Of a stretch of 25,105 bases of DNA, positions 543-18,775 are shown one piece after another (position 1 is the first letter of the stretch; the number at the start of each line of letters is the position of its first letter). A program made the position numbers and the translations under genes. The DNA lies in IMG/VR virus record IMGVR_UViG_3300042113_000047, positions 1 to 25,105 of that record. The stretch is one strand, 5' to 3'. The notes beneath the pieces were generated by a model that did not search any database, had not been told where the DNA came from, and saw nothing but the letters and a program-made list of their open reading frames with translations. The DNA comes from a virus.

Positions 543-3242
543 TTAATTTGGAACACATCCTGGAGCATAATATGTATTTCCTTCATATTTACATTGACCC
601 ACAAAATAACAAGGGTTACTTGCGGTATTTACGTCTGTCTGATTACATTTCCAATATACTAAAGACGCTGTTGTTGTAGTGGTAGTAGTAGTAGTAGTGG
701 TTTTATATACGTCTGGACAACAAGACCCGCTTGTAGTTCCGCTCAGGGCACCAGATCTTGGAGATCCAGAAGGACAGCATTGTGGTGCAAAATAATATGT
801 TCCATAATCTGAATATACGCAGGTACATACTGTTGTTGTAGTGGTTGTAGTAGTACAGGCTGGCGGATTTGATGAGGCTGGATATGATCCTGTATTATTA
901 TAAGAGCATACCGTTCTATAACTATTACAAACTACCTCTGAATCATCGGTTGTTGATTCATAATATTCATCTGGAAGACCACTTTGATAATAATTAACAT
1001 GACAGTACCACTTGTAGGTTGGAGCAGTCCATCCGCAGCGTCCATCTGTTAATTGATATGATCCATATGTTACGCTATTAGTACAACCAGATGTATCATA
1101 AGAAGATCCATCCCACACTCCATTAACATAAATTTTTCTTCTATAATATGTTGTAGTTACATCTCTATTAAATTGAGCATCACATTCATATGTAGTTGAT
1201 GTATACCAAACTTCGCAGGGACCATATGTTGTAGATGATGTCATATTAAAAGCTACTCCAGCACTCCAAGCACTTGCTAAGCTAGAAGGGCCGACGCTGG
1301 TTTCTCCTGCAGTTTCTACAGATCTAACATACATATATTGAGTAGTAGTAGAGGTTGGGCCAGTAGTATCAGATATTGGGCTAGATGATCCTGAACCATC
1401 TGGAGTTACTGCAAAGGTTGGTGCAGTGTTGCTAGTAAACCAATATATTTGATAGTACGGTCCAGATCCACCGCTAAAATTACAGGTTACAGTTCCGCCT
1501 ACTAGGCCAGCAACAACGGATGTAATTGTTGGAGCGGTTTTATTACTAACAACAGATATTTGCCTTGACCTAGTGCTTCTTGTAGGATCTCCTTGAGGCT
1601 CCCATTTTAATATAGCAGTATATGTTCCACCGCTTGAATATGTTTTAGTAATATTAGCAAAACTAGGGTTGCTTGTTCCAGTAGAAAAATATTGCCAACC
1701 ACTATCTGTTTCATCGCCATACTCTATAATATATCTTCTTGGATAAGACGCATAACCAGATGGATAAGATACGGTGCTTCCAGAAAATGTTACTGATGAT
1801 CCAGGACTGATGCTTGTACTACTAACATTTAAAGTCATTGCTGAAGATGGAGCAACAATAACTGTTCCTGGTAAGTCTCTTCCATATTGATATGTTTGAA
1901 TAGCTCCTAAATTTACTACACCATCATAATATGAAGCATTGGCATTTGATGTAGTTGAACTTGCACGAGCACTAAGTCTAAATAAATATTCCCATCTGGC
2001 TTGTCCAGTATTATATGTTGGTCCAGCAATTCCATATAATATGTCTGCGTTTATATAAGTTCTCCATACAACTGTTGCAGTAGTTCCATTTAGCGTAACT
2101 GACCATGGAGTTAAATCATCAGACCAAGTTGCTGAGTCTGTTACTGTAGTTGAATTCCATTTATAATAATTACCACTTTGCCTATTATACATTTTTGGCT
2201 CTAATAAATAATAAGTACTTGAAAGTGCATTATTAACAGTTGCCGTTATCCAGATATATCCATCTGTAATAATTCTAGGACTTGATTGATTATCAACAAT
2301 TAGATTCCCATTCTCATCTGTAAAATTAACATTTGTTATTACTGGCACATCACCACTTGATTTTACTAGAGTTACTGGAGAGCCATAATGATCTGTATAG
2401 GAATTTTGTAAATAAAGTTGAGCAACTATATATTGACCAGCTGGCAAGGCTGAGGCTAAATTATAATTTACTGATGCATCATATGTAGTTCCAGTTCCAT
2501 TATAGTCTTCATAAGACCCGCTTCTTGTTTCTGTTACTACAGTAATACTATCTAAATAATCTGTTCTAAGAGCAGTTCCTCCAGGAGTTTTAGAAGTATT
2601 TTGCCACCACTTTACATAAGATCTTGACCAGTCTACTGCGTTATACCATCTATCTTCAATATTAAAATTAAAAGTAAATTGTGTAGGGCTTTCTATCCAG
2701 CTGCTGCTATTAATTACTGGAGATTTTCTAATTAATTTAATTGGAGGATTTGAATATAAAACAGAACTTCCCCAAACGTTAGTTACCTTTACTTCATAAA
2801 ATAAATAAAAGGCATCTGCCCAATATCTTTTATATGCTACGTTAGATTCCGTTCCGCTTGTTAAATTATAAACATCTATAGATTCTAATGTGACTCTATC
2901 TTCATTACCAGTATCATCATAAGAGACTTTCATTTTTCTATAATTAAATGTTATTGGTTGCGCTCCAGTAATACTTGACCCATTACCATCATGTCCATAT
3001 AAAACAGCGTCTAAGTATTGTGGGCTTGGTACTACAGTTCCGTTATATCCACCAGATCTTATATTAAGCGGATCATTTGCATTTACGGCTGGAGCATCTC
3101 CTGGCCACATCTGAACCCAACCAAAATTTGTTTTAGCAAATAGTCTAGTTGCAGATTTCCATAACCCATCGGCAGCCTTAACAAATACTTTTTTAGCATT
3201 TGTTGACCAGTTACCGTCAGATTTTTTTAAATATATTGGCAT
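543..3242 (-). CDS. Tail tip/adhesion protein with PKD domain and Cys-Thr-rich C-terminus
   Basis: This 899-residue protein is probably a virion surface protein at the tail tip that contacts the host. Residues 1-48 hold three imperfect repeats built around Gly-aromatic and Phe-x-Lys motifs (DGNWSTNAKKVFVK, DGLWKSATRLFAK, FGWVQMWP). Residues about 50-465 are Ser/Thr/Tyr-rich beta sheet. Residues about 468-560 match a PKD domain, with SPGSSVTFSGS followed by EYGDETDSGW and an ITKTYSSGGTYTA strand. An FN3-like segment follows to about 662. The last 235 residues hold 18 cysteines and two pure threonine tracts of 8 and 11. The start has AGGA with an A-rich spacer and lies 9 bases after the previous stop. 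Many extracellular adhesins have PKD and FN3 domains, and the position after the fibre gene supports host binding, but no receptor or enzyme activity can be read from the sequence. Confidence 0.7.
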   Translation of the reverse strand: MPIYLKKSDGNWSTNAKKVFVKAADGLWKSATRLFAKTNFGWVQMWPGDAPAVNANDPLNIRSGGYNGTVVPSPQYLDAVLYGHDGNGSSITGAQPITFNYRKMKVSYDDTGNEDRVTLESIDVYNLTSGTESNVAYKRYWADAFYLFYEVKVTNVWGSSVLYSNPPIKLIRKSPVINSSSWIESPTQFTFNFNIEDRWYNAVDWSRSYVKWWQNTSKTPGGTALRTDYLDSITVVTETRSGSYEDYNGTGTTYDASVNYNLASALPAGQYIVAQLYLQNSYTDHYGSPVTLVKSSGDVPVITNVNFTDENGNLIVDNQSSPRIITDGYIWITATVNNALSSTYYLLEPKMYNRQSGNYYKWNSTTVTDSATWSDDLTPWSVTLNGTTATVVWRTYINADILYGIAGPTYNTGQARWEYLFRLSARASSTTSNANASYYDGVVNLGAIQTYQYGRDLPGTVIVAPSSAMTLNVSSTSISPGSSVTFSGSTVSYPSGYASYPRRYIIEYGDETDSGWQYFSTGTSNPSFANITKTYSSGGTYTAILKWEPQGDPTRSTRSRQISVVSNKTAPTITSVVAGLVGGTVTCNFSGGSGPYYQIYWFTSNTAPTFAVTPDGSGSSSPISDTTGPTSTTTQYMYVRSVETAGETSVGPSSLASAWSAGVAFNMTSSTTYGPCEVWYTSTTYECDAQFNRDVTTTYYRRKIYVNGVWDGSSYDTSGCTNSVTYGSYQLTDGRCGWTAPTYKWYCHVNYYQSGLPDEYYESTTDDSEVVCNSYRTVCSYNNTGSYPASSNPPACTTTTTTTTVCTCVYSDYGTYYFAPQCCPSGSPRSGALSGTTSGSCCPDVYKTTTTTTTTTTTASLVYWKCNQTDVNTASNPCYFVGQCKYEGNTYYAPGCVPN
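669..701 (-). repeat. Threonine-codon tract, 11 codons
   Basis: Eleven consecutive threonine codons (ACC, five ACT, ACC, ACT, three ACA) form a microsatellite-like trinucleotide tract inside the Cys-rich tail of the 899-residue protein. The last five codons are identical to the last five of the tract at 831-854. Confidence 0.9.
831..854 (-). repeat. Threonine-codon tract, 8 codons
   Basis: Eight consecutive threonine codons lie between two cysteine-containing modules of the 899-residue protein. The 15-base end ACCACTACAACAACA is shared exactly with the 11-codon tract, which suggests a duplication. Confidence 0.9.
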
Positions 3243-7575: not shown

Positions 7576-9276
7576 TCAACTATAAAATGATCTAGCTGTA
7601 ATGGTAGTCTGAAGCCCCTCTCCAAAAGAATTGTCAACATTTGTTACTACAAATTTTTTAGTACTGTCTAAATTATTTTTAGGATAATTAATTGTTATTA
7701 CATCTCCAACTTCAATAGCTGGGTTTCCAAATATTTCAAGGTTGACCGACTGTTGTTGTTTTGACCATTGATTTTTAGCCCATGTAAAAAGAGATTTTGC
7801 ATCTTGCTCTGTTTGAATCCAAGTGGACTGGAAGGTGGCTGGTTCTGGAGTTGTATATTCATTTATAGACTCTTCGGTATATTCATGGCTTCCGTTTATT
7901 GAAATATAGTTTCCTATAATAAAAAAGTTATGAGCTCCAGATTGTAATGGTATAAATGTTCCAGCGTTATTTGCTACATATACTTCTGCTCCGTGATTAG
8001 TAAACCTACTTCCAATAATGTTTGCATATTGATTAACTCCAGTACTTGCATAAGATGGATATGCTCCTGGTTGAGCAAAATTTATTTTTACTTTTCTTAA
8101 TTCTCTAGCGACAGTTCCAAATTCTTCTATGTATGCTCTTTTTTCTAATGGAGTATCTATGTTATTAATTAATTTATCTCCATATGCAAAGTTTAACATT
8201 GTATCTCCAAATTGTCCGCTGTAGATATTTGCAAGTATGGCTTGATTATATTCTGTTTGAGATAGTGGCATTGAGTATATATAGTCAAAGTGTGCGGATC
8301 CTAGATTAGAAAATACTGCAATTTTATTAGTTTTAGGAATTGCTTTTTGTATTGGAGTAGCGGTTGCTGAAGTGTTATAAACATCTGCGGCGCTTATTTT
8401 AAAATTGTTAATATATAAATCAATAATTGTGGCAGCACTTGTTATTTCAACTTTAACGTCTACCTTATACTGAGTAGAACCAATAATTCCACCATACATT
8501 TTGGCATTAGTTCCCTCCTGGCTATCTGGTAATTCCTTTTTTACTCCGTCTACAAATTTTACTATTTTGACTGATTTATTTTTATTATCAACGCTTGCTT
8601 GCTCTGTTGTTATTTCTATAAAATACCCAGTGGTTGCATTATCATTAACAAAAAATGCTATTCCTCCAGAACATTTTGGAGTTTTAACTGGACTATCAAA
8701 AAATATTCCAGCACCAAATACATAGTGATTATATGAGGTAGAAATATTAATTGATTTTGTGGCTACAGAATATTTTTGTAAATCTTTATTTTTTGATGTG
8801 ACGGTAAAAAATGATCTTTGAATTGATCTATTATCTGATACAGCAACTGATGTTCCAGTAGTTTCTCCAGAATTACCAACACTACCAGATACTCCTACTA
8901 CCGAAGAAGATTTTGGAGTTACAAAACTGGTATAGGCATATTCTCCGTAGGTTCCAGTTTGATTAGACGATGAGTATGCCCTTAGTCTAATTACATAAGA
9001 TTGTCCTGGTGTTAAACCACTTAGTATATATGGAGACTGTTGAGTTGGTTGAGTATTTGTATTTATTACAAAGGTTGATGTTGTAAATGTTGTTCCTACA
9101 GAAACTGCACCTTCATAGCTTCCCGCCGCAATAACGCATGGGGGTACTGAAATTTTTACCTGAGTACCTCCAGCAACTAATTCAACTGATATCCATGATA
9201 TTGCAAAGTTTGCTGGAACTATAGCAGTTGGTGGTTCATACCCACCATCCAATAACCAATCTTCTAGTCTTACCAT
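7576..9276 (-). CDS. Minor tail protein: FN3, LamG-like and hub-like domains
   Basis: This 566-residue tail-tip protein joins three parts. Residues about 20-122 look like one FN3 domain (LSGLTPGQSYVIRLRAYSSS is a classic FN3 F-strand). Residues about 150-345 look like a LamG/concanavalin-type sandwich (HYVFGAGIFFDSP, GIAFFVNDNATTGYFIEITT, KVDVKVEITSAATIIDLYIN). Residues about 350-566 resemble the C-terminal part of tail hub or Tal-type proteins, with TEQDAKSLFTWAKNQWSKQ and the strand GNPAIEVGDVITINYP. The start is an ATG with AAAGGA about nine bases upstream, 22 bases after the stop of the gene before. Hub proteins form the cap of the tail tube; the extra FN3 and LamG domains suggest sugar or surface binding. 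Domain boundaries are read by eye. Confidence 0.7.
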   Translation of the reverse strand: MVRLEDWLLDGGYEPPTAIVPANFAISWISVELVAGGTQVKISVPPCVIAAGSYEGAVSVGTTFTTSTFVINTNTQPTQQSPYILSGLTPGQSYVIRLRAYSSSNQTGTYGEYAYTSFVTPKSSSVVGVSGSVGNSGETTGTSVAVSDNRSIQRSFFTVTSKNKDLQKYSVATKSINISTSYNHYVFGAGIFFDSPVKTPKCSGGIAFFVNDNATTGYFIEITTEQASVDNKNKSVKIVKFVDGVKKELPDSQEGTNAKMYGGIIGSTQYKVDVKVEITSAATIIDLYINNFKISAADVYNTSATATPIQKAIPKTNKIAVFSNLGSAHFDYIYSMPLSQTEYNQAILANIYSGQFGDTMLNFAYGDKLINNIDTPLEKRAYIEEFGTVARELRKVKINFAQPGAYPSYASTGVNQYANIIGSRFTNHGAEVYVANNAGTFIPLQSGAHNFFIIGNYISINGSHEYTEESINEYTTPEPATFQSTWIQTEQDAKSLFTWAKNQWSKQQQSVNLEIFGNPAIEVGDVITINYPKNNLDSTKKFVVTNVDNSFGEGLQTTITARSFYS

Positions 9277-9298: not shown

Positions 9299-11209
9299 TC
9301 ATTTTACAGTAACCTCATAACCATTCCATTGTGAAATAATAGAATCAGCATTTGCATAATGATTATCTATTGGTGTGCCGAAAGCGCCTCGTGTTTTTAT
9401 TCTGAAAAATCCACTTGGCCTATAGTCATTAACAACGCTAGACAATGCTTGACCTAAATATTTTAACTGGTCTGTTTTACTAGTTAAATCTACTTTTACT
9501 AAATTACCAGAAGCGTCTGTATATTGAAATTGAATAGCATCGTATTCAATAATTTCAGAGTCTATCATTAAATATCCAGTATATGAATATGCAGATATTC
9601 CATATTCTTGTTCATTTAAAACTGCTGGAGACAAAGCAATGTATGAACCAGCGCCAGCTGTAGATAAAAGATTTTGATTTAAAGCAAAAGCTCCTAAGTA
9701 GTACGGATCAGATTTCCAAATGTCTTGTGAGCTTTCTATATAATTATTTGTTGAAACGCTATTCCAAAAAATTTTAAATTGATTTGCTGATGGTAAATCA
9801 TTTTTTGATAAAGATATAATGTTTGATAAATTTCCGCCTCCAGAATCGTATCTCAAAGACCAATTGGCTGGCCTTGTGCTATCAAATATATATTCTCTGC
9901 TGTAGAAATTTAAAACATTGTCGTATCCAAAAACTGCTGTTATTTGTGCATCCCTGCATAATTCTTGTAGGCAGTCCCAAACAGTTTTTGTATTGTCTGT
10001 CCACCAATATCTAGGAGAAAAAATAGATGAATCTGTTTCTTTTATATAAATATTATAGCTTGTAAATCCTACTGAATCTAAAAGCCTTCTTATAATTGCG
10101 GTTATAGAATATCCTTCACATACTATTCCTGGAGCCACTGTTTCTTGTAAAATTTTTGCGCTATCTAAAGCGTTTACAGATATATCTCCAAATTCTTCTG
10201 TTTCCCAAGTGTCTATAAGAAATGTTCCTTGTGGTATTAAGTCATAATTACCTTCCGCATCTGATTTAGATCCTGTAGAATTATATAACTTAATGTATGG
10301 CAAAACCATTGCTTGTTTGTATAGATATATCTTTGAGGAACTTAGCGTATCAGATTTATTAAAACTTAATATTTTTCTATCTGCCTCATACGATACTAAG
10401 TTTAGTTGTATAGAGTTAGCGGAAATTCTGCCTACTGGCATTAAATCTTCAGTACTTGTAGAAGACTCTTTACGAATATTAAATCTAACCAAATGATCTG
10501 TAATGTCTACATACCAACGTGGAGATAATTCTATTAGACCAACATATTTACCACTAACTGCAGAAGTTGTTATTTTAACACTTGTTAAGCTTATTGGCGC
10601 AGCTGGAGAAGATGGTTCTGTTGTAGACCATCCAGTTCCATTGTAATAAATTGTTACCGTTCCAGCATTAAAATTTTTATTTGATTCTGTTGTAAATGGA
10701 ACAATCGAAGCGCTTGAGCCAGTGGCAAGTTGTGATCCGTTTCCAAATATAGTCCATGTTCCTGGAGTTGAATGTGATAATTCAAAACGTGCAACTATTT
10801 TATTTGTTAGAATAGTTTTAGGATAAGTAATAGTTACGTCAAGGCCTGTGCTCAATCCTGATACATAATATTTATAATTAGTATCTGGGCCAGGATAATA
10901 AATTCTAAAATTAGGAGAGTAGGTTAATGAAGCTGGATTTTTCCATCCGTTATCAACATCTCCAGATATTGCATATTTAATTCCAGCTCCAATTGGTCTA
11001 AATGGTTTAATAATTGAATCTAGCGGAAATAATTTTTTAAATGGTTTATATGTATTACCAGCAGCATCTGTTTTAGTTACTTCTGCTCCAGATACTACTA
11101 TATTATCAATCATAGAATTCATATTATATTCTATATAACATGCCGCCCGATATGTTACAGATACGTTTTGCTCTAGTGCTGTACTAGCTCCTAATGGTAG
11201 TGGATACAT
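9299..11209 (-). CDS. Minor tail protein / tail hub component, 636 aa
   Basis: This is a large protein of the tail tip, translated directly after the distal-tail-like gene through a TAATG junction. Residues about 90-190 form a beta-rich insert (IVARFELSHSTPGTWTIFGNG) that resembles a discoidin or carbohydrate-binding fold. Residues about 345-450 carry an alpha/beta pattern seen in phage hub and baseplate proteins: NALDSAKILQE, then YSITAIIRRLLDSVGF, then KTVWDCLQELCRDAQITAVFGYDNVLNFYSRE. This is the section in which hub proteins build the ring under the tube. The C-terminus returns to beta structure. Its place after the tape measure and the distal-tail-like gene, and before another hub-like protein, suggests that the two proteins together close the tail. 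No peptidase or lysozyme motif was seen. Confidence 0.7.
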   Translation of the reverse strand: MYPLPLGASTALEQNVSVTYRAACYIEYNMNSMIDNIVVSGAEVTKTDAAGNTYKPFKKLFPLDSIIKPFRPIGAGIKYAISGDVDNGWKNPASLTYSPNFRIYYPGPDTNYKYYVSGLSTGLDVTITYPKTILTNKIVARFELSHSTPGTWTIFGNGSQLATGSSASIVPFTTESNKNFNAGTVTIYYNGTGWSTTEPSSPAAPISLTSVKITTSAVSGKYVGLIELSPRWYVDITDHLVRFNIRKESSTSTEDLMPVGRISANSIQLNLVSYEADRKILSFNKSDTLSSSKIYLYKQAMVLPYIKLYNSTGSKSDAEGNYDLIPQGTFLIDTWETEEFGDISVNALDSAKILQETVAPGIVCEGYSITAIIRRLLDSVGFTSYNIYIKETDSSIFSPRYWWTDNTKTVWDCLQELCRDAQITAVFGYDNVLNFYSREYIFDSTRPANWSLRYDSGGGNLSNIISLSKNDLPSANQFKIFWNSVSTNNYIESSQDIWKSDPYYLGAFALNQNLLSTAGAGSYIALSPAVLNEQEYGISAYSYTGYLMIDSEIIEYDAIQFQYTDASGNLVKVDLTSKTDQLKYLGQALSSVVNDYRPSGFFRIKTRGAFGTPIDNHYANADSIISQWNGYEVTVK

Positions 11210-18087: not shown

Positions 18088-18749
18088 TTATTGCTCCTTA
18101 AAGTATCCTAATCCTGCTCCAATTCCAAACCCAGCTTCCGCTGCGAATGATCCTTGTAGCGAAACAACATCATCTGCTGTAGCATTTATTCCTGATGCTC
18201 TCAAACGAATGTCGTCAAACGAGGAACTTTTCTCTTCTTCGTATTCACCTATATCTACACCCTTTAGCATTGCTTGAAACTTTCTTTGTTCGTGTTCCTT
18301 TTTCTTTAATGCTTGTAGCGTATTTATAAGTTCTGGCATTGAAAGATTTTCTTCTAGTTCATCGTAATTTTTCCAATGACCTAAAAGGAAAAGCTCTCCT
18401 TCAAGTGCGGCTAAGTCTAGTTCTGTCCAGCCAGAACCGCTGCCGCTAGAAGGTTTGGGTCGTCAAGTTTAATTCCTCCGCAAACTTCAAGAATGCGGTT
18501 CATTGTAGGAACATCAAGAGCGTCTTCTAGAGCTTCTCTGTCTTTTACCAAATCTGGTAGTTGCTTCTCTAAAGCAATTGCACAAGCGTCAATAAGAATT
18601 GTTAGGGTCTCTCCCTCTGTCTTAACTTCGCCAGTCTTTTGAATAGCCTCCATAAATTTACGGAGTTCTTTAATTGATAATGGTTTGAGCTTTATGTTTT
18701 GCCCATTTTGTAGTTGAATTTCTTCTACGTTATATACTGTAGTAGCCAA
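18088..18749 (-). CDS. gpGT-type tail assembly chaperone made by -1 frameshift
   Basis: This is the long form of the tail assembly chaperone, joined from 18749..18453 and, after a -1 shift that reads 18453 twice, 18453..18088. It would have 99 + 121 = 220 residues. Past the slip site the -1 frame stays open and reads PSSGSGSGWTELDLAAL, then a helical segment (LINTLQALKKKEHEQRKFQAM) and a Gly-rich end. In lambda the equivalent gpG and gpGT bind the tape measure and tube protein during tail assembly and are absent from the finished virion. An ATG at 18339 in this frame has no good Shine-Dalgarno sequence and would discard a long open upstream stretch, so I do not take it as the start. The stop lies eight bases before the tape measure ATG. 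Confidence 0.85.
18407..18446 (-). other. Predicted frameshift-stimulating hairpin
   Basis: Six bases after the slippery heptamer, GCGGC (18446-18442) can pair with GCCGC (18411-18407). Inside it GTTCTG (18437-18432) pairs with CAGAAC (18425-18420) around a six-base loop. The short form's stop codon lies in the structure. Spacing and position are typical of -1 stimulatory structures; pairing was done by eye. Confidence 0.6.
18417..18749 (-). CDS. gpG-type tail assembly chaperone, short form
   Basis: The short chaperone has 110 residues when read from a TTG at 18749, giving MATTVYNVEEIQLQ. I choose this start because AAGGAGG (18755-18761) stands five bases upstream, an ideal distance; the earlier TTG at 18773 has no such site. 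The protein has an N-terminal beta segment (IKLKPLSIKELRKFMEAI) and helices, a layout common in tail chaperones of siphophages. It lies between the major tail protein and the tape measure, the standard place of gpG. Most ribosomes should stop at the TAG at 18417-18419, and a minority should slip 12 codons earlier and make the longer form. It has a candidate promoter of its own just downstream of the tail-tube terminator. Confidence 0.85.
   Translation of the reverse strand: MATTVYNVEEIQLQNGQNIKLKPLSIKELRKFMEAIQKTGEVKTEGETLTILIDACAIALEKQLPDLVKDREALEDALDVPTMNRILEVCGGIKLDDPNLLAAAVLAGQN
18453..18459 (-). other. Programmed -1 frameshift site CCCAAAC
   Basis: The minus strand reads C CCA AAC in the frame of the short chaperone, the canonical X-XXY-YYZ slippery form. 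After a -1 slip the next codon is CCT at 18453-18451, and the new frame is open to 18088. The -1 frame carries a stop (TGA) three codons upstream of this heptamer, so the slip must occur in the 18419-18462 stretch, and this is the only canonical heptamer there. Confidence 0.85.
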
Positions 18750-18754
18750 TTTAT

Positions 18755-18761
18755 CCTCCTT
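18755..18761 (-). promoter_or_regulatory. Shine-Dalgarno that fixes a TTG start
   Basis: AAGGAGG on the minus strand lies five bases before the TTG at 18749. It decides the start of the chaperone over the upstream TTG at 18773. Confidence 0.85.
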
Positions 18762-18775
18762 GGATAGTCTCAATT

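Follow-up and report, generated by a model that had tools for sequence, protein, structure and literature searches.

A cysteine-rich fibre tail with threonine tracts in an environmental phage: a candidate O-glycosylated, exchangeable receptor-binding tip

The C-terminal tail of the fibre protein described here – a string of small cysteine-rich modules interrupted by pure threonine tracts – is, on balance, best read as the receptor-binding tip of a minor tail fibre: O-glycosylated, mucin-like, beaded by disulfides and exchanged horizontally. The window (the whole stretch of DNA analysed, a virus record of 25,105 nucleotides, or 25.1 kb) encodes the fibre itself; its relatives with threonine tracts all carry, just downstream, a gene for a PF11397 enzyme annotated as 'Glycosyltransferase (GlcNAc)', and for this reason such phages probably build mucin-like stalks. 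Relatives are cited below by locus number (L002 and so on) where they must be told apart.

The window holds a tailed-phage structural module, with protease, major capsid protein, head–tail genes, tape measure and minor tail genes. Its major capsid protein is 59–60% identical to those of Streptomyces phages of the Stanwilliamsviridae, and its gene order matches that of Faust, Tomas and Mildred21 as far as the tape measure and minor tail genes – a likeness judged by the capsid protein and tail gene order. The ~60% capsid identity and the matching order make an actinobacterial host probable, and the phage is probably a siphovirus. Faust differs: its annotation shows no cassette-like fibre following the gp44-type gene, and it lacks a PF11397 gene. 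Elsewhere in the window, adjacent genes at 7576–9276 and 9299–11209 match successive parts of phrog_10359; Streptomyces phages have this as one gene (gp41 type), which is thus split in the window. Two small genes ahead of the tape measure gene (18088–18339 and 18417–18773) occupy the place equivalent to that of Faust's tail assembly chaperones, and a programmed frameshift is possible there.

The fibre gene (543–3242; 899 residues) is the last gene of the tail module, downstream of the tail genes phrog_9983 and phrog_11445, the tape measure and the minor tail genes; it and the features of its product given below, like the two genes that follow it, lie on the minus strand. Its body (residues 1–662; 1257–3242), 55–59% conserved in relatives with other C-termini, has a single cysteine, at residue 587. 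The tail (residues 663–899; 546–1256) is of quite different composition, just as the initial annotation had described it: there are indeed 18 cysteines within the last 235 residues (676, 687, 720, 736, 747, 772, 779, 796, 806, 808, 822, 823, 841, 842, 866, 878, 884 and 896), where the other 18 proteins of the window, with 25 cysteines in 7283 residues, would lead one to expect 0.8 (probability of 18 or more, about 8e-19), and there are indeed pure threonine tracts, T8 (tract 1, residues 797–804; 831–854), a putative O-glycosylation site and stalk, and T11 (tract 2, residues 848–858; 669–701). Given a threonine content of 13.6% in the fibre protein, the expected number of T8 runs is 9e-5 and that of T11 runs 2e-7. 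As ACT, ACA and ACC codons are mixed, the tracts are not a simple DNA microsatellite; three relatives (L030, L031 and L032) each retain a tract of exactly T11 although most of its codons differ, which shows that threonine is selected at the protein level. Searches of Pfam, PHROGs and the PDB with the whole protein or the tail gave no match, tail homologues sought in cultured phages and plasmids were not found, and cellular genomes searched with queries A1 and A3 yielded no relative.

Among relatives in uncultured tailed phages, the presence of the tracts is followed closely by that of one enzyme gene. This gene, of ~300 codons, matches PF11397 with E-values of 1e-30 to 3e-36 and scores of 107–126 bits, against a curated cut-off of 21 (the proteins of L132 and L123 match too). 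In searches of whole records, it is present in all 13 relatives with threonine tracts, ~2 kb or less downstream, and absent from all 10 relatives without tracts; six of these 10 have the cysteine cassette but no threonine run. With relatedness ignored, Fisher's test gives 9e-7, and since carriers share ancestry these counts overstate independence. Contrasts between related bodies point the same way: L013 and L030–L032 have tract and enzyme, whereas L045/L046 and L002–L007 have neither, and L014/L017 against L050, and L019 against L039/L052, agree. The sharpest is that between L031 (T11 and enzyme) and L046 (neither), which are 95% identical in DNA downstream of the enzyme gene, the gene itself being cleanly missing in L046. 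In seven close carriers the gene starts 633–651 bp past the fibre stop, and the window record ends 542 bp past it, which places the expected start ~91–109 bp beyond the record end; we infer that the window phage encodes the enzyme there. Residues D91, H93 and H227 of the phage enzyme, an invariant D-x-H with a later histidine, are conserved in 80 of 80 sequences. By analogy with GT27 we take them to be putative metal ligands; such a motif is expected of a metal-dependent GT-A enzyme.

The association also holds when the enzyme alone is used as bait. Of 80 viral loci found in this way, 64 had 3 kb of upstream DNA, and 38 were left after near-duplicates were removed; an upstream same-strand ORF carries a threonine tract in 59 of the 64 and in 33 of the 38, and two of the five non-redundant exceptions hold Thr/Ala/Pro or Thr/Pro repeats instead. 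Runs of five or more threonines number 290 in 98,433 residues upstream of the enzyme and 16 in 202,981 residues elsewhere in the same loci, a ~37-fold difference in density, and threonine dominates the homopolymer runs of these loci (306, against 29 for glycine, the next). Many of the fibres so linked, from quite different phages, are cysteine-rich as well. The converse does not hold: a Thr11 bait run across viral contigs found the enzyme nearby in only 2 of 47 loci with 2.5 kb of downstream DNA, and the notion that any threonine tract implies the enzyme was rejected on this count. Thus finding the enzyme foretells a tract (33/38), but outside phages of this kind a tract is no guide to the enzyme (2/47). 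The other Thr11 tracts have as neighbours endolysins, a few GT2 genes and a ~305-residue family of unknown function (phrog_4417, seven members), which lies directly 3' of the Thr11 ORF in L162, L151, L174, L188, L199, L204 and L239.

Some enzyme loci have further genes of possible relevance to modification. A radical SAM/SPASM protein directly precedes the PF11397 gene in many of them (L110:7000–8001, L080:7000–8001, L019:5786–6787, L106, L115 and L127), and at times a sugar epimerase comes after it; peptides are frequent targets of SPASM enzymes, which here possibly modify the cysteine-rich fibres. PF11397 and DUF7164 are fused in one protein in L123 (7140–8921), and in L072 DUF7164 is a separate gene neighbouring the PF11397 gene.

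An account in which the tracts are merely bare, flexible or extended linkers, and the linked enzyme modifies host cell-wall glycan, the capsid or DNA, has to be taken seriously, even if we regard it as unlikely. Threonine tracts evidently do not need the enzyme in general and may work bare, given the 2 of 47 loci just cited, and some cassette carriers join modules A and B without any threonine. The PF11397 family itself has other uses, to judge from its distant members in phages XacN1 and RAS14, which have no T5 run within their 30-kb neighbourhood; that of XacN1 sits beside sugar genes (carbamoyl transferase, GT9). What such an account leaves unexplained is why, among the relatives of the window, the enzyme follows the tract exactly, through swaps of module and body alike, why it is so cleanly missing from tract-less L046, and why a search with the enzyme alone lands so regularly downstream of threonine tracts.

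We therefore prefer glycosylation, with the threonine tracts as the likely acceptor of the PF11397 enzyme, a reading drawn from gene content and sequence. The phage enzyme would O-glycosylate the tracts, adding HexNAc while the fibre is still in the host cytoplasm and unassembled. Glycosylated threonine runs are stiff and protease-resistant, and the modified tracts would become mucin-like stalks of this kind, holding the small modules – folded as beads, whose disulfides would form after lysis – away from the fibre body, so that the beads could make contact with the cell surface. The suggestion of a mucin-like stalk or sugar-modified site, made earlier from the sequence, has gained considerable weight through the presence of the enzyme gene in tract forms and its absence from tract-less ones, the gene itself lying outside the window record. 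That phages possess a dedicated system of mucin-type O-glycosylation, consisting of a PF11397 enzyme and threonine-tract fibres with exchangeable disulfide-rich beads, is in our view as likely as not. If they do, they offer a concrete enzyme–substrate pair (the PF11397 protein and a Thr8–Thr11 peptide) for phage-made protein O-glycosylation, and an explanation of the threonine-only linkers in these environmental fibres. We found no description of phage glycosylation of threonine tracts in the openly licensed full-text literature.

The tail as a whole behaves as a mobile, horizontally swapped C-terminal cassette in these sequence comparisons. Body relatives L002–L007 (55–59% identity) have further repeats in place of the Cys/Thr tail, and the tail used alone as query retrieves fibres with unrelated bodies from uncultured tailed phages. 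Its modules (X1, X2, A and B), 49–88% identical, stand at the ends of fibres whose bodies fall into six groups by N-terminal sequence, and the window's own body group mixes carriers and non-carriers. The cassette is C-terminal in every case; its linkers are threonine runs or of the TTTTAP type, and are sometimes missing altogether. The accompanying domains, of types usual in proteins that make contact with surfaces, are fn3, PKD, InlB repeats and PASTA, the last in as many as nine copies. One such fibre (L029:1–6291), of 2097 residues, contains the PASTA domain nine times and module A twice, along with many threonine linkers; in another (L052:4362–5660), X1 occurs in tandem, in at least two and apparently three copies, after a PASTA domain. 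Two threonine-tract fibres (L080:3257–6247 and L086:4658–7309) end in a Hint-like domain after the Cys/Thr region, the match being a weak one to Hint_2, below the cut-off.

The gene that follows the fibre appears to travel with the tip. In relatives, the order is fibre, a gene of ~120–130 residues, a small gene (DUF6171 in L009) and the ~300-residue PF11397 gene. In the window, the gene next to the fibre gene is g119 (119 residues; 144–503), and the start of the one after it (1–192), which runs off the record end, is homologous to the small protein. Canonical module B is paired with a g119-type gene in nine of nine cases, the window included, and the variant B' with relatives of g119 of 127–136 residues in nine of nine, a pairing that spans three body groups; L017, which has no module B, has neither type of gene. 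The small gene before the PF11397 gene (g107) occurs in cassette carriers with threonine tracts and in those without. A co-swapped next gene would fit a chaperone or partner of the tip, for which g119 is the candidate in the window; alternatively, it accompanies B or B' through simple linkage. The original proposal of a receptor-binding tip, which would bind the host, is supported by this co-swapping, by the place of the cassette at the very C-terminal end of the product of the last tail gene, by its transfer onto unrelated bodies and by the company of PASTA, InlB-repeat, fn3 and PKD domains.

Four modules can be distinguished within the tail. X1 (residues 673–737; 1032–1226; four cysteines) is confidently predicted as β-rich (pLDDT ~81–97); X2 (738–796; 855–1031) has four cysteines and A (806–847; 702–827) six, as CxC..CC..CC. 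The terminal B (862–899; 546–659) was aligned with copies as little as 21% identical, 18 in all, and its four cysteines are the only invariant columns. Every copy of A has six cysteines and every copy of X1 four, and each of the 20 tails compared has an even number of cysteines. The model of the tail (pLDDT 75) covers X1 alone well; a fold search with it gave at best VIA Z-scores of 3.9 and 3.6, for X1 against G5 domains, which is too weak to rely on, and the low-confidence model of A and B (pLDDT 68) had no fold match, such small cysteine modules being poorly served by structure prediction. Neither sequence nor fold searches produced a match pointing to what the modules bind.

Even parity and invariant cysteines are best explained if the modules are disulfide-paired. 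Metal-binding beads of the zinc type, free of disulfides, would suit an assembly that takes place, as that of virions does, in the reducing cytoplasm, and the CxC and CC pairs of module A are what one might expect of them; yet the cysteine number is even in every tail, and the distances between cysteines vary greatly among copies of B and of X1, which makes this alternative doubtful. Disulfide-paired beads could also be carbohydrate-binding domains like fungal CBM1 (or CBM14), which likewise sit on Thr/Ser-rich linkers, and module B has a C-x5-C and an N-x-Y-Y before its last cysteine. We nonetheless consider this identity improbable: a CBM1 pattern after PROSITE PS00562 is not matched by module B, an outcome on which CBM1 was rejected for it, and there is no Pfam match and no sequence or fold match in the PDB, although domains this small are hard to match. 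Sugar binding as such is a possible function of the terminal modules. The initial annotation had seen in A and B two copies of a knot-like domain sharing C-x-Y...TYY-AP-x-C, and the shared pattern is real in the window (CVY-SDYG-TYYFAP-QCCP in A, CKY-EGN-TYYAP-GCVP in B), but a duplicated cysteine knot is very improbable, as the two profiles align with a probability of 2% over nine columns, the modules have six and four cysteines, and B' variants lack the TYY, all of which speaks against duplication. The knot fold fares no better, since an ICK takes six cysteines in three interlocked disulfides, which A could supply in number and B, with only four, could not form alone.

Several known systems resemble parts of this arrangement. 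PASTA proteins (PF03793) share a polypeptide with the cassette in L029, L019, L039 and L052, whereas the fibre protein of the window is itself without a PASTA domain. Phage fibres with swappable tips and a cognate downstream chaperone are familiar from T4 gp37–gp38 and lambda Tfa, and here too different bodies carry interchangeable tips, each of which comes with its own next gene (g119 with B, the 127–136-residue genes with B'); the tip here, however, is a chain of small cysteine modules, likened to those systems by arrangement. If the proposal is correct, interchangeable small disulfide modules are at work at the host-contact tip in phages of uncultured bacteria. For the stalks, the closest parallel is protozoan. 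A PDB sequence search with the phage PF11397 enzyme gave no match, the enzyme being too distant, and the comparison runs through the family, PF11397 / CAZy GT60, to which TcOGNT-2 of Trypanosoma cruzi and DdGnt2 of Dictyostelium presumably belong. TcOGNT-2, a polypeptide α-GlcNAc-transferase related to DdGnt2, uses UDP-GlcNAc and Mn2+ to start mucin O-glycans and glycosylates a Thr8 peptide, KPPTTTTTTTTKPP (PMC3769586). Both systems thus combine a threonine run, as the acceptor in T. cruzi and the putative acceptor in the phage, with an enzyme of this kind, the phage one by its match to PF11397; that of T. cruzi is eukaryotic and resides in the Golgi, whereas the phage case would play out in the bacterial cytoplasm. 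If phages do have the proposed system, protozoan mucin glycosylation has a viral equivalent that operates in the cytoplasm.
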